A DNA stretch of 64,000 nucleotides from assembly GCF_902459525.1 (NCBI RefSeq), contig NZ_LR699166.1, forward strand, positions 2,368,501 to 2,432,500. Direction: 5' to 3'. Position 1 is the stretch's first letter, and every line of letters begins with the position of its first letter. The translations under genes were made by a program, and so were the position numbers. Under the pieces are notes generated by a model, which was given only the letters and a program-made list of their open reading frames with translations, was not told the DNA's origin and searched no databases. This document shows, one piece after another, positions 28,463 to 60,443 of the stretch. Source of the stretch: Sideroxydans sp. CL21 (GTDB taxonomy: Bacteria > Pseudomonadota > Gammaproteobacteria > Burkholderiales > Gallionellaceae).

Positions 28463-31400
28463 ATGAATCGAGAATCAGAAGACGTCATAGAATCGATAGA
28501 TATATTCACGTGGGACGATAACTTCAACACGGGAATTCCCAAGATCGATGAACAGCACAAGAAACTAGTCAAATTAATCAATATTCTCGCAAGTCATATC
28601 GCATTTCAGTCCAACAGTCCTGAACTGAATCTTGTTTTCAATGAGCTTCTGGACTATGCCACGCATCATTTCCAAACCGAAGAAGAAATCTGGCATAGGT
28701 ATCTCCCTGACGACGATTTAGAATCCATACATATCGCTGTTCATCACGGTTTTCTCGCCAATATACTCAAGTTAAAAGCAGAACAAAGCACCAATCTATC
28801 GGAAAGATTGACAGAAGAAGTGCTCGGATATTTGATACGTTGGCTGGCCTCGCATATCCTGGACGAGGACCGGCACATAGCGATGGTTATATTGGCAATG
28901 CAGTCAGGCATGCCATTGGAGTCTGCCAAGGCGCATGCGCAGGAAAAAATGAACGGGGCATCGAGGGTATATAGAGACATCATCCATTCCCTCTTCGGCA
29001 ACCTATCAACCAACACATCGCATTTGAATCGGGAACTGGCCAAACATAAACTTATCGAAGCTGAACTCGTGCAATCTCGCAATGGGATTGCGGAACGTGA
29101 AATTGCTTTCCGTACGTTGGTAGAAAACACCCCGGATACTATTGTCCGCTATGATGGTAATTGTCGTCGCATATACGCAAACCCGGTCCTGGTGAGCCAA
29201 ATTGGCAAGCCATTCGATGAGATTATTGGTACAACACCTGCAGAATCTGCTCAACCAGAAATGTTGGCGTATGAGGAAACAATCAAGGAAGTAATCAGGA
29301 ATGGCCAGCCAGGTACTTTTTTGCTGAAATGGAAGAATATAAGTGGGGAAGATATTTATTCCGACCTTCGATTAATTCCTGAACACGATCCTGCGGGGAA
29401 CATAATCAGTGTGTTGGGCATTGGTACGGATATAACCAAGCGCGTAAAAGTCGAGCAAGATTTGAGAAGTGAAAGCGAGAAGAACCTCATACTCTTGCGA
29501 AATGCCAGCGACGGCATTCACATTCTTGATGCTCAAGGTAACATTATCGAGGCAAGCGACTCATTTTGTGCCTTGCTGGGCTACAACCATAGTGAAGTAA
29601 TTGGCATGAATGTTTCACATTGGGACGCCAAATTCAGCGATTTCGAGCTAAATGAACGTGCAAAATTAATATACCTGGAAAATAAACGTTCCCAGTTTGA
29701 GACCAGTCACCTGCGCAAAGATGGAACGATTATTGAGGTGGAAGTCAGCATCTTCCCTCTTGAGTTGAATGGTGAACCAGTAATGTTTTGCTCATCGCGA
29801 GACATAACAGAGCGCAAGCAAGCCGAAATAGCACTGCTACAGCAAAATCAATTCTCTGAAGATATCATCAACAGCCTGCCCGGTATATTCTACATGGTGG
29901 ACCTGCAAGGAAATTTCGTTCGTGTGAACTCTCAATTTATGGAAGTGACCGGTTATTCTAAAGCCGAACTTGATGGCATGAACGCATTAGGTCTGTTTGA
30001 AGAGCAAGACAGTTTCCTGCTCATACAGAAGGCGCAAGAAGTCTTTGAAAATGGCAACGCTGAAGCAGAAATTGAATTAATAACCAAGTCCAGGCAAAAA
30101 ATCCCATACTACTTTACCGGGAGACGCACCAGCATCAACAATCGTTTATACGTTGTGGGTATCGGAACGGACATCACCGAACAAAGAAAGGCTAAAGAAC
30201 GAATTATCAGGTTGGCAAACTTCGACCAACTCACCGGCTTGCCAAATCGAACTCTGCTTAATGACCACTTCAGATACGCCATCAATCTGGCGCAACGGAG
30301 TGGTAAGTTTTTGGCGGTGTTGTTCCTCGATCTCGATCATTTCAAGGACATCAATGACACACTGGGGCACAGTATTGGTGACCAGGTTTTGATGGAGGTG
30401 TCCAGGCGACTCAAGTCAGCATTGCGCGAAGAAGACACTCTGTCACGTCAAGGCGGAGATGAATTCATATTGATTCTGCCAGGATCTGATGCGGATGGTG
30501 CGGCATTGGTAGCCACGAAACTGATCGAAATCATTTCACAGCCTTGTGTTGTCGGGACGAGTGAATTGATAGTCACGCCTTCTATTGGCATCGCAATCTA
30601 TCCACATGATGGTGATACACAAGAATTGCTGTCCAAAAATGCCGACGCTGCCATGTATCGTGTCAAACATGAAGGGCGCAATAACTATCATTTTTATTCG
30701 GCTGAAATGCAAGCGCAGTCTGAGCGCAATCTGAAGCTGGCGAATGCCCTGCGGCACGCATTGGTGCGAAACGAATTTCAAGTGCATTACCAACCCCAAT
30801 TGTCTTTGCAAGATAGCCGCATTGTTGGCGTGGAAGCCTTGCTTCGTTGGCAGCATCCGGAATTAGGAATGATTTCACCAGCGGAATTTATCCCGATAGC
30901 CGAAAATAATGGACAGATCATTCCTATAGGAGAATGGGTGTTGCGTACCGCAACAGAGCAATTGAAAGATTGGATGGATGAAGGACTATCGCCGATGATG
31001 ATGGCAGTGAATCTATCCGCTGTGCAGTTCCGCCAAAAAGATTTGTCTGAATTGATTACCCGCATTCTGGATGATGTGAAGCTGCCATATCAATATCTTG
31101 AGCTTGAATTAACCGAAGCAGCGACGATGGATAACCCCCTTGCAGCTATTGAGACGATGGACAAACTGCGTGAACACGGCATACGCCTGTCCATTGACGA
31201 CTTTGGAACGGGTTACTCCAGCTTGAGTTATCTAAAACAATTCAACGTGTACAAGTTAAAGATTGATCAGTCCTTCGTCAGTGACATCACCAACGATCAG
31301 GATGATAAAGCAATCGTGACCGCCATCATCAACATGGCAAGCAGTCTCGGCATGCAAACCATCGCGGAAGGTGTGGAAACCGCCAGTCAGTTGGCATTTC

Positions 31401-31492
31401 TACGTTTGCAGGGTTGCAATGAAGTTCAGGGCTACTATTTCAGCAAGCCCCTAACGAAAAATGAATTCGAAACGTTCGCCAGGGAGCATTAA
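28463..31492 (+). CDS. hemerythrin-PAS-GGDEF-EAL signalling protein
   Basis: A 1009-residue soluble protein. The N-terminal bacteriohemerythrin domain (about 10-150) has diiron ligand motifs: DEQHKKL, HHFQTEEEIW, HHGFL and HILDEDRH. Three PAS domains follow (about 200-325, 335-455, 460-575). GGDEF (about 580-740) is intact (RQGGDEF) with an inhibitory RxxD (REED) five residues before it. EAL (about 755-1000) has VEALLRWQHP and DDFGTGYSSLSYLK, so both catalytic activities are plausible. It probably couples oxygen or redox state to c-di-GMP turnover. It forms an operon with the chemoreceptor upstream. Confidence 0.95.
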   Translation: MNRESEDVIESIDIFTWDDNFNTGIPKIDEQHKKLVKLINILASHIAFQSNSPELNLVFNELLDYATHHFQTEEEIWHRYLPDDDLESIHIAVHHGFLANILKLKAEQSTNLSERLTEEVLGYLIRWLASHILDEDRHIAMVILAMQSGMPLESAKAHAQEKMNGASRVYRDIIHSLFGNLSTNTSHLNRELAKHKLIEAELVQSRNGIAEREIAFRTLVENTPDTIVRYDGNCRRIYANPVLVSQIGKPFDEIIGTTPAESAQPEMLAYEETIKEVIRNGQPGTFLLKWKNISGEDIYSDLRLIPEHDPAGNIISVLGIGTDITKRVKVEQDLRSESEKNLILLRNASDGIHILDAQGNIIEASDSFCALLGYNHSEVIGMNVSHWDAKFSDFELNERAKLIYLENKRSQFETSHLRKDGTIIEVEVSIFPLELNGEPVMFCSSRDITERKQAEIALLQQNQFSEDIINSLPGIFYMVDLQGNFVRVNSQFMEVTGYSKAELDGMNALGLFEEQDSFLLIQKAQEVFENGNAEAEIELITKSRQKIPYYFTGRRTSINNRLYVVGIGTDITEQRKAKERIIRLANFDQLTGLPNRTLLNDHFRYAINLAQRSGKFLAVLFLDLDHFKDINDTLGHSIGDQVLMEVSRRLKSALREEDTLSRQGGDEFILILPGSDADGAALVATKLIEIISQPCVVGTSELIVTPSIGIAIYPHDGDTQELLSKNADAAMYRVKHEGRNNYHFYSAEMQAQSERNLKLANALRHALVRNEFQVHYQPQLSLQDSRIVGVEALLRWQHPELGMISPAEFIPIAENNGQIIPIGEWVLRTATEQLKDWMDEGLSPMMMAVNLSAVQFRQKDLSELITRILDDVKLPYQYLELELTEAATMDNPLAAIETMDKLREHGIRLSIDDFGTGYSSLSYLKQFNVYKLKIDQSFVSDITNDQDDKAIVTAIINMASSLGMQTIAEGVETASQLAFLRLQGCNEVQGYYFSKPLTKNEFETFAREH

Positions 31493-58389: not shown

Positions 58390-58574
58390 CGCTTACCTCC
58401 TATGCACTCAGCCGAGTCTCGATTGAGTTTCACCGGCCGTGCCGTCGCATGTCTGATCGATACCACGCACTGTTTATATGGGGTCATACATCGACCGGCA
58501 ATTCCCGGCTGCAATGTGCAAGTTCGATATGAATTCATCGACCAACCGTTCTTGCACAGCAAGCGTCGCTTAAC

Positions 58575-59090
58575 TTACCAGATTTTCCTCCACCAACGAC
58601 CGGTCTTTTCAACCATTTCCATGAAGACTGCCGTCGCTTCGCGTTCCCACGCGGCAATCGAGAATCCGCTGTTGCGCAGTGCGGAGCTATATTTTTTATC
58701 GCTATCCTGAATGTGTTCCTTGAGCCACAACTTGAGAAAACTCAGCAGTTCAAAATGAATCGGTTTTTCATCGATCAAGAATTTTTTGCTTAGTTGATCG
58801 AGTCGCTCTATTAACTTCCTGTGTTCAAGTTTATGCGCTTCGAAACCCTCGTAGTTGGCCTGTTGCATCAGCTTCTCTTCAAGCGCGAAATGCGTTTTTG
58901 TGTAGGCCACAAGGTCATCGAGTATGACGGCGATTTCCTTATCGGCTTGCCGCCTTGAGACAGCGATGAATAAGTGATTAAGAATGCAGATCAACTCCTG
59001 ATGTTGATTGTCGATTGTATTGATATCGACGCTGTAGTCTGGCGACCACTTGAAGAAAATCTCTTCGTCTGACATGGCAAACTCGGACAT
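58575..59090 (-). CDS. bacteriohemerythrin under a c-di-GMP-I riboswitch
   Basis: A 171-residue hemerythrin: DNQHQEL, THFALEEKL, EHRKL and WLKEHIQDSDKK give the expected His and acidic diiron ligands. A longer C-terminal helix (ALRNSGFSIAAWEREATAVF, ending RWWRKIW) is unusual. GGGGAGG lies five bases before the ATG at 59090. Its 5' leader carries a GEMM-I (c-di-GMP) aptamer at 59215-59304, 125 bases upstream, so expression probably responds to c-di-GMP. It is less like the paralogues at 48717 and 60571. Confidence 0.92.
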   Translation of the reverse strand: MSEFAMSDEEIFFKWSPDYSVDINTIDNQHQELICILNHLFIAVSRRQADKEIAVILDDLVAYTKTHFALEEKLMQQANYEGFEAHKLEHRKLIERLDQLSKKFLIDEKPIHFELLSFLKLWLKEHIQDSDKKYSSALRNSGFSIAAWEREATAVFMEMVEKTGRWWRKIW

Positions 59091-59609
59091 TATTACCTCC
59101 CCTCGTTATGGATTAGTGCTCGCTTGATATTGAAACGAGTTCAATTAAGTCAGATAAATATCTCCTCCCAATTGATTTCAACGACCGACGGAGCTGGAGA
59201 GAGGCACAGGAATGGAAACCCATGTCGCAGTCCCGCTACCATAGTTACCCTTAGGCCGGAGACTTTGCGCCCATACTTTTCAGTACGTTTGCCAAGCAAG
59301 GTTCAGAATATTCCCTATTCAATTTATGGTCAATATGACCAGCAGCCCGGCATGTATTCCCAGGCAGGCCCCATTTCGCAAGTTTCCAAGTGGAACTCAG
59401 AATTTATCCTATTTCACGCGCAAGGATATTGAATGTGCATGGTAGTAACCATGATCCATGAAATTTAATTCATCCAGTTCTTCGCAGTGATTTCTTATAA
59501 TTATCCAAGCCTGTGCGTAAATTTTTTGAGAACTCCTAATTTTGGCTGCGGTGTCTGAATGCGGCACGCAAATCAACAATTTTATTTGCATGGAATGACA
59601 GGAGGTTTT
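59091..59609. other. divergent control region of the riboswitch-linked hemerythrin and the SPFH lipoprotein
   Basis: About 520 bp: the leader of the minus-strand hemerythrin (with the riboswitch) and the promoter region of the plus-strand lipoprotein. A small hairpin ATGGT-AGTA-ACCAT sits near 59439-59452. No other gene is supported. Confidence 0.6.
59215..59304 (-). ncRNA. cyclic-di-GMP-I (GEMM-I) riboswitch aptamer
   Basis: Read on the minus strand, the sequence contains the GEMM-I core in order: GGCAAAC, a stem GTACT closed by a GAAA tetraloop and AGTAT, then GGGCGCAAAGTCTCCGGCCTAAGG, with TATGGTAGCGGG on the far side. CCTAAG and TATGG form the 11-nucleotide receptor that the GAAA loop docks into, and CTCCGGCCTAA and GGTAGCGGG match the Vibrio cholerae Vc2 aptamer base for base. 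The outer stem pairs GAACC (59300-59304) with GGGTTTC. It precedes the hemerythrin gene on the same strand. I see no clear terminator, so control may act on translation. Confidence 0.9.
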
Positions 59610-60443
59610 ATGAAAAACTCATTGCTTATTGCTGTCATGGGTTGCGTAGTGATTTCATTGTCGGCCTGCACAACTGTCCAGTCCGGAATGGGAGCCGTCG
59701 AATGGACTCCCAGCAGCGGGACATTAAAAGAGCCCATCGGAGAAGGCTTCCATATAGTCTCGCCTTTCAGCGAAATCTATCAATACGATTTAAGGGAGCA
59801 GGAACATCAGGAAAGCCTTGATGTACTGGCTAACAACGGTCTTTCCATCATTCTCGATACCTCGATCCTATTTAAGCCTGTCAACTCCGAGCTTTTTCTT
59901 CTCCAGACAGAAATCGGACCGGACTATTATCGGATTCTCCTTGGCCCGCTTCTCCGTAGCGGGGCGCGGAAAGTTGTAGGACGTTACAGCCCGGAAGAAA
60001 TTTACTCTACCAAACGTGAAGAAGTCGAAAAAGAAATATTCGCGGAGGTCAACCGGAAACTTCAATCCAAACACATTCAGGTCGATGGAATCTTGATCCG
60101 GGATGTTCACCTTCCCAAAGTCGTCCAGGAAGCAATCGAACTGAAACTCCAGCAAGAGCAAAGGGCTCTCGCCATGCAGTTTGTCCTCGATAAGGAAAGA
60201 AAAGAAGCCGAGCGTAAAAAAATTGAAGCCGCAGGGATAGCCGATTATCAACTACTGATTGGAAAAGGCTTGACTGATGCCCTTCTTCAATGGAAACAGA
60301 TTGAAGCCATTGAGAAACTGGTTCAATCTCCCAACAGCAAGACAATTATTCTGGATGCAGGGAAAGGAAATCTTCCATTGATTCTGGACACCAGAACTTT
60401 TGAGCCGGAGTCCAAGCCCAATGGCGCGGGGAAGGCGCACTAA
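59610..60443 (+). CDS. prohibitin-like SPFH-domain lipoprotein
   Basis: A 277-residue protein with a lipoprotein signal (ISLSACTT, Cys20) and a Band-7/SPFH (prohibitin-type) domain (DYYRILLGPLLRSGARKVVGRYSPEEIY). A charged coiled coil follows (about 175-225, LDKERKEAERKKIEAAG). Most SPFH proteins are anchored by a hydrophobic segment; a lipidated form is less common, suggesting an outer-membrane or periplasmic scaffold. GGAGG precedes the ATG at 59610. Confidence 0.88.
   Translation: MKNSLLIAVMGCVVISLSACTTVQSGMGAVEWTPSSGTLKEPIGEGFHIVSPFSEIYQYDLREQEHQESLDVLANNGLSIILDTSILFKPVNSELFLLQTEIGPDYYRILLGPLLRSGARKVVGRYSPEEIYSTKREEVEKEIFAEVNRKLQSKHIQVDGILIRDVHLPKVVQEAIELKLQQEQRALAMQFVLDKERKEAERKKIEAAGIADYQLLIGKGLTDALLQWKQIEAIEKLVQSPNSKTIILDAGKGNLPLILDTRTFEPESKPNGAGKAH

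Follow-up and report, generated by a model that had tools for sequence, protein, structure and literature searches.

A compact, apparently P1-less c-di-GMP-I aptamer ahead of a bacteriohemerythrin gene in Sideroxydans sp. CL21: a predicted riboswitch that recurs in Gallionellaceae

Does the leader of a stand-alone bacteriohemerythrin gene in Sideroxydans sp. CL21 carry a genuine c-di-GMP riboswitch, and how might such a leader act on the gene? The locus lies in a 64,000-nucleotide stretch, here called the window, of a single-contig genome of 3,772,857 bases that holds seven c-di-GMP-I aptamers. A preliminary description, made from the sequence, had read a GEMM-I core in the minus-strand leader and named the Rfam covariance model as the check. 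In this work RF01051 (Rfam c-di-GMP-I) matched the window at 59303-59223 (minus strand) over its full length (model 1-87), scoring 63.9 bits where the gathering threshold is 35 (E 3.6e-10 for the 64-kb window), so the core is present. A permissive Rfam rescan of 701 bases of the locus retained no family besides RF01051, which was the top family of its clan there; two overlapping, lower-scoring matches of the same clan were omitted. The aptamer match ends 132 nt before the hemerythrin ATG, on the same strand. The elements of the aptamer and its gene are:

59223 to 59303, minus strand: c-di-GMP-I (GEMM-I) aptamer, compact 81-nt form (RF01051, 63.9 bits)
59281 to 59278, minus strand: GAAA tetraloop capping P2 (from the sequence)
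59255 to 59250 (CCTAAG) and 59243 to 59239 (TATGG), minus strand: tetraloop receptor (from the sequence and the leader alignment)
58575 to 59090, minus strand: single-domain bacteriohemerythrin, 171 aa (PF01814 and NF033749)

The GAAA tetraloop and its CCTAAG/TATGG receptor were both found in the sequence, as the preliminary description had said. The aptamer also contains CTCCGGCCTAA and GGTAGCGGG, which we take to be identical to stretches of the Vc2 aptamer. The ligand contacts, presumably G20, A47, and C92 in Vc2 numbering, fall at 59293, 59266, and 59227, respectively. For comparison we aligned 22 related leaders of the compact type (13 ahead of hemerythrin genes, eight ahead of genes for a small cysteine protein, and one whose gene runs off the contig), and the positions mapped as G20, A47, and C92 were invariant among them. 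In P2, five of the six pairs showed changes on both sides across the 22 leaders, which is covariation. The P3 pairs were intact in all 22 leaders, yet hardly vary, and P3 pairing therefore says little. The P3 tip at the window locus is six positions shorter than the RF01051 consensus.

The downstream ORF (59090-58575) proved to be a single-domain bacteriohemerythrin, as had been claimed, scoring above the cut-off with PF01814 (47.1 bits; cut-off 25.3) and NF033749 (135.3 bits; cut-off 84). Residues H30, H67, E71, H86, H90, H126, and D131, which we take to be the seven diiron ligands (H,H,E,H,H,H,D), were invariant in 23 homologs, and the product is a predicted oxygen-binding protein with all seven iron ligands kept. 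Among proteins of solved structure, its sequence best matches the DcrH hemerythrin domain and bacteriohemerythrin entry 4xpx (2avk, 80.9 bits; 4xpx, 73.9 bits). The subfamily has a C-terminal tail (58575-58700, minus strand) in which W148, W166, W167, and W171 are invariant in 23 homologs. A second bacteriohemerythrin is encoded nearby (60999-60571, minus strand; NF033749, 90.7 bits), and the RF01051 scan of the window gave no aptamer match for it.

Next, 61 relatives were searched for both the aptamer and the protein, with a close homolog defined by at least 59% identity. Among the 24 close homologs, found in 18 genomes, 11 had a GEMM-I aptamer directly upstream on the same strand (in 11 genomes); the remaining 13 loci were rescanned with Rfam and gave no GEMM-I aptamer. 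The aptamer-free homologs include G028a, which at 80% identity is the nearest outside the window's own lineage. In the named collection, the aptamer was likewise found at 11 of 24 homolog loci, nine of them already in the set of 61 relatives; the two extra pairs were L106 and L087, the latter a MAG that encodes a protein with 99% identity to that of the window. The homologs in this collection belong to Sideroxydans, Sideroxyarcus, Gallionella, Gallionellaceae, Nitrosomonadales, and Proteobacteria/Gammaproteobacteria, with one from Sulfuricellaceae and one from Thiobacillus. Altogether, distinct aptamer-hemerythrin pairs occur in 13 genomes of the window's family (Sideroxydans, Sideroxyarcus, Gallionella, and other kin), and the spacing from G20 to the ATG is 172-211 nt in all 13 hemerythrin leaders. 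An order-wide scan found the aptamer in 149 of 399 genomes. We surveyed 95 c-di-GMP-I loci outside the window's genus (29 new from the 399-genome scan, six from the 61 relatives, and 60 further), a non-random set of mostly top-scoring rows with nine loci in the window's family and two that are tandem aptamers of one leader; one of the 95 stands ahead of a hemerythrin, in G284 (the contig of L106), which is of the same family. Within the loci examined in the order, the aptamer-hemerythrin pairing is a trait of the window's family.

How the aptamer relates to the gene was weighed against this recurrence. The frequency of GEMM-free close homologs (13 of 24, G028a at 80% identity included) would fit an aptamer that is degenerate or out of place and does nothing for the hemerythrin gene, but the pair recurs 13 times on the same strand and at a similar distance, the contact residues are invariant, and the stems covary, which makes such an accident highly improbable. 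Because the pairing recurs in 13 genomes, predicted c-di-GMP control of the hemerythrin is well supported comparatively, and we hold the leader to be, with high confidence for a prediction of this kind, a real c-di-GMP-I riboswitch acting on the hemerythrin gene. The recurrence in relatives suggests that these low-oxygen bacteria tie oxygen handling to the c-di-GMP signal.

For seven linked loci, gene neighborhoods were compared across 3.4 to 13 kb of sequence each. L114 and L116 have adjacent genes in common, and L112 and L114 have one common gene, on opposite sides; the other linked loci have nothing specific in common beyond GGDEF-type matches and a weak pair, L112/L115. Synteny was set aside as a sign of common descent, the window neighbors matching those of the near-identical MAG L087 alone among 24 loci compared.

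Position 20 points to the probable ligand. Variants with A20 prefer cGAMP; the base at this position is G in 22 of 22 leaders. G20 has been described as the determinative base for preferring c-di-GMP (PMC10333796), and the G20-equivalent position also as a selectivity factor, not a hard filter (PMC9262584). The second description would allow the aptamer to sense another cyclic dinucleotide, such as 3',3'-cGAMP, in place of c-di-GMP, but with the determinative G20 in every leader, RF01051 the best family of its clan, and 58 GGDEF matches in the genome, we regard this as very unlikely. The preliminary description had further proposed that the hemerythrin is switched by the second messenger made by cyclases of the same window. 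Four GGDEF proteins are indeed encoded in the window, and the part of the proposal that concerns c-di-GMP control is backed by the 13-genome recurrence and by G20, whereas the argument from nearness is weak: with 58 GGDEF matches across the genome, the nearness of the window cyclases means little. One protein of the window combines both domain types:

28463 to 31492, plus strand: hemerythrin-PAS-GGDEF-EAL protein (Pfam domains)

Judged by these domains, it is a possible oxygen-linked c-di-GMP enzyme. An 822-residue frame elsewhere in the genome has a hemerythrin match (908368-908778) next to a GGDEF match (907867-908340). A Vibrio cholerae cyclase is said, in work by Schaller from 2012 (cited in PMC8576532), to be regulated by its own hemerythrin domain. 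For this genome we infer a possible loop, in which oxygen could act on c-di-GMP and c-di-GMP in turn on the hemerythrin.

Transcription of the leader was considered next. The region scan and the same place in related leaders give the following predicted promoter:

59328 to 59333, minus strand: sigma70-like -35 hexamer TTGACC (region scan; same place in related leaders)
59305 to 59310, minus strand: -10 hexamer TATTCT, 17-nt spacer, 11 nt before G20 (region scan; related leaders)

From this spacing, a transcription start is predicted near 59299-59296. In a search of the 100 nt upstream of G20, every one of the 22 leaders had its best or joint-best sigma70-like promoter ending 10-11 nt before that base, an equal score being found elsewhere in three. 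In the same scan of cyclase-type GEMM-I leaders of the same genus, the best or joint-best promoter lay at 10-13 nt in 3 of 14 and the others scatter. Over a 45-nt stretch the 22 leaders had a mean promoter score of 8.7 vs 6.6 in shuffles (the stretch length itself limits the distance), with each leader's own shuffle test above 0.08 in four rows (G000cys, G018, G006, and G029cys). Scanning the region 58500-59700 by itself yielded one site where shuffles average 1.8, so the case for the promoter rests on its conserved place. A promoter at 32-34 nt in six cyclase-type leaders, found with a stricter filter, was dropped, as 14 such leaders scatter over 100 nt.

A promoter that ends 10-11 nt before G20, with a start a few nt before G20, would leave no room for a P1 helix; with the start placed by promoter spacing, no 5' strand for P1 would be left. 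We considered a P1 formed by GAACC before and GGTTT after the window aptamer and rejected it: the two can pair, but GAACC falls between the -10 hexamer and the expected start and is probably untranscribed. Cd1 is described as lacking P1 yet binding c-di-GMP, and Vc2 as losing binding without P1 (PMC9262584); given the behavior of Vc2, affinity may be low here.

The region between the aptamer and the start codon contains three elements that may form the expression platform:

59205 to 59224, minus strand: hairpin P4, 3' of the aptamer, arms 59224-59219 and 59210-59205 (covariation)
59196 to 59204, minus strand: pyrimidine tract CCTCTCTCC, proposed anti-P3/anti-Shine-Dalgarno strand (ligand-free folds and complementarity)
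59096 to 59104, minus strand: Shine-Dalgarno (SD) GAGGGGAGG, 5 nt before the ATG (from the sequence)

P4 starts at the third base past C92; in the 22 leaders four of its seven pairs changed on both sides and 79.9% of the cells are paired, the helix having been drawn after the alignment was inspected. The fit is poor in the five rows of one hemerythrin subgroup (with G033). RNAalifold draws another alternative, in which GGCA (G20-A23) pairs with UGCC in and after the 3' arm of P4 and P4 itself is absent. Folded without ligand at 25 C, the leaders formed P3 with a mean probability of 0.70 when cut down to the aptamer, of 0.45 when extended to +100, and of 0.07 when extended to +120, and the pairing of the P3 3' strand with downstream sequence climbed from 0.20 to 0.68 between +100 and +120. 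Anti-P3 pairing averaged 0.64 for native tracts vs 0.41 for shuffled ones (Wilcoxon p 0.0003 over 22 related rows, a value that is optimistic because the leaders are related). It exceeded the shuffled mean in every one of the 13 hemerythrin rows and in 18 of the 22 rows overall; the four leaders in which it was not favored over shuffles (G000, G001, G007, and G011) are cysteine-protein leaders. Taken singly, just 4 of 22 rows reached the 0.05 level, and the window row stood at 0.13. The complementarity of the tract to the SD gave a Stouffer z of -3.2 over 21 related leaders, with seven of the 21 no better than shuffled (z >= 0) and the window row at -0.33. No intrinsic terminator was found in 58500-59700 as an expression platform (terminator scan; sites no more than in shuffles).

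Based on these results, we propose that the leader would be a cis-acting c-di-GMP-I riboswitch setting the amount of bacteriohemerythrin. Transcription would begin a few nt before G20, giving an aptamer without the canonical P1 helix. In the ligand-free RNA, P4 would grow as the pyrimidine tract pairs with the 3' strand of P3 (anti-P3), dismantling the aptamer. Early binding of c-di-GMP would lock P3 and free the tract, which would then cover the Shine-Dalgarno and lower translation (an OFF switch), so that low c-di-GMP would mean more oxygen-binding protein. The competition between P3 and anti-P3, which comes from modeled folds, we consider somewhat probable, and it is about as credible, a shade more so, that the riboswitch acts on the hemerythrin through this competition in one direction or the other. 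The read-out is probably translational rather than transcriptional, and OFF is preferred to ON with c-di-GMP by a small degree of confidence. An OFF switch of the kind reported for Vc2 is favored because of the anti-P3 pairing, the complementarity of tract and SD, and the lack of a terminator-like site at the locus.

Folding of whole leaders did not separate the two directions: over 11 leaders there was no consistent change. Forcing the aptamer cut SD accessibility by >=0.05 in three of the 11 (G000, G011, and G028b) and raised it by >=0.05 in two (G027 and G030), with a smaller change in the other six; start-codon accessibility in these 11 full-leader folds, aptamer forced vs free, changed in mixed ways. 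The opposite sign, in which c-di-GMP turns the hemerythrin ON because the ribosome site is buried in the ligand-free RNA, by the extended anti-P3 hairpin or by a longer fold, and is released on binding, has the following in its favor: in 10 of 11 leaders the SD is mostly paired even when no constraint is set, the forced aptamer slightly opens the SD in G027 and G030, and it raises start-codon accessibility from 0.02 to 0.47 in G027 and from 0.41 to 0.58 in G011. In G000, G011, and G028b, on the other hand, the forced aptamer closes the SD, and the tract freed by loss of anti-P3 tends to complement the SD (Stouffer z -3.2, 21 related rows). We rate the ON switch as a serious but less probable reading. 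A transcriptional read-out through Rho was also considered, with the tract that follows P4, in which C outnumbers G, serving as a Rho loading site that the aptamer exposes or hides. The tracts are 53-76% pyrimidine with C > G in 21 of 21 leaders, and the locus has no intrinsic terminator-like site; but the tracts are short and SD complementarity is a more direct route, and we find Rho-dependent control unlikely.

Other c-di-GMP-I loci came to light in the course of the survey. In eight genomes, a related promoter-abutting aptamer stands ahead of a protein of about 60 residues with at least four cysteines. These loci are:

L003 (G000:C1:3499908-3499988, minus strand), L073, L074, L078, L079, L081, L082, and L084: cysteine-protein aptamers

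The cysteine proteins gave no Pfam match over the cut-off (two tested) and no NCBIfam match (one tested); they are possibly an unnamed conserved target of c-di-GMP control. Aptamer L001 (G000:C1:306994-307083, plus strand) stands ahead of a gene whose product combines ankyrin repeats with an adenylate/guanylate cyclase domain (domain-tested for L001), and N-termini similar to that of the L001 product were found in 15 aptamer loci (L001 and 14 others); a link from c-di-GMP to cAMP/cGMP conserved in the genus is a possible reading of these loci. Judging from translations, L002 and L146 precede PstS-like (phosphate-binding) genes, L005 and L154 MotB-like (flagellar motor) genes, and L007 a PEP-CTERM-like gene.

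Has the aptamer-hemerythrin pair arisen once? In a protein tree of 33 homologs, the 13 linked proteins need at least two changes when strongly supported branches are counted, and the best tree needs three; forcing them into one clade was rejected (p-AU 2.5e-6). This pattern fits two gains, or one early gain plus losses. The window gene and its L087 twin cluster with the aptamer-free G028a (97/100), apart from the other eleven linked proteins, and on the strength of the protein tree the window's pair is probably a second origin. As for the leader, the region 3' of the window aptamer is nearest to the small cysteine-protein leaders (0.80 for G029, 0.76 for that of its own genome, and 0.73 for G011), with a maximum of 0.59 for other hemerythrin leaders except L087 (0.98). 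The 45 nt upstream of the window G20 are nearest to hemerythrin leaders (after L087, the best is G022 at 0.59). In the leader tree, the window leader groups with the cysteine leaders of G000 and G029 (90/85). A single clade of hemerythrin leaders was rejected (p-AU 0.0117) in a leader tree without G033, which was left out of the AU test as its gene runs off the contig and the downstream gene is unassigned; this tree has just two strongly supported branches, which alone are compatible with one origin. Copying from a cysteine-protein leader is likely for the aptamer plus hairpin, by these sequence comparisons, and is not extended to the promoter because, over the 45 nt upstream of G20, no cysteine-protein leader is the closest match. 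Tentatively, and as a reading that we hold somewhat less likely than not, a promoter-abutting, P1-less c-di-GMP-I module may circulate in Gallionellaceae, where it would serve a small cysteine-rich protein, and may have been placed at least two times ahead of different bacteriohemerythrin paralogs; the window lineage would have copied the aptamer and hairpin of a cysteine-protein leader, and hemerythrin-GGDEF-EAL proteins would close an oxygen/c-di-GMP loop.

In Sideroxydans ES-1 there are 14 hemerythrin genes, and the reason for so many 'remains unknown' (PMC3770913). A riboswitch on one hemerythrin subfamily would offer a regulatory handle on the many hemerythrins of Sideroxydans: one pool of hemerythrin is predicted to track c-di-GMP, and with it perhaps the change from motile to attached life, at the boundary of oxygen and iron that these bacteria inhabit. 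If true, the module would complete a circuit in microaerophilic iron oxidizers, with oxygen setting c-di-GMP, which in turn sets the hemerythrin pool. The probable second origin, together with the leader match to another family, makes this a testable case of riboswitch re-use on a new gene. A form that abuts its promoter and apparently lacks P1 would also be a natural test of which parts of the c-di-GMP-I fold are dispensable. Literature searches on hemerythrin with riboswitch, GEMM, or c-di-GMP, and on Gallionella or Sideroxydans with riboswitch, did not find the pairing, which the tables of the original GEMM papers may mention.

Among known systems, the DcrH hemerythrin domain and 4xpx are of the same family by sequence, and the ligand residues are kept in the window protein; the window group differs by its C-terminal tail with conserved tryptophans and by predicted riboswitch control. 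The Geobacter GEMM RNA belongs to the same superfamily and also comes from a bacterium with many hemerythrins, but the GEMM-regulated gene named in the accessible part of that source encodes a fibronectin-type III protein, not a hemerythrin (PMC2996986). Cd1 of Clostridioides difficile resembles the apparently P1-less window form in binding c-di-GMP without P1; it is a transcriptional OFF switch on flagellar proteins (PMC9262584), whereas no terminator-like site was found at the window locus. Vc2 of Vibrio cholerae, described as a translational OFF switch (PMC9262584), shares with the window locus the aptamer core, the G20/A47/C92 contacts, and translational control as proposed here (PMC9262584, PMC9049102). 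Vc2 needs P1 (PMC9262584), whereas the predicted promoter leaves no room for P1 at the window locus, which also differs from Vc2 in its P3 tip, six positions short of the RF01051 consensus, in the conserved hairpin after the aptamer, and in its hemerythrin target. We concluded that the aptamer class is a known one, that hemerythrin is apparently a new target class for it, and that its form here is unusual and apparently P1-less.
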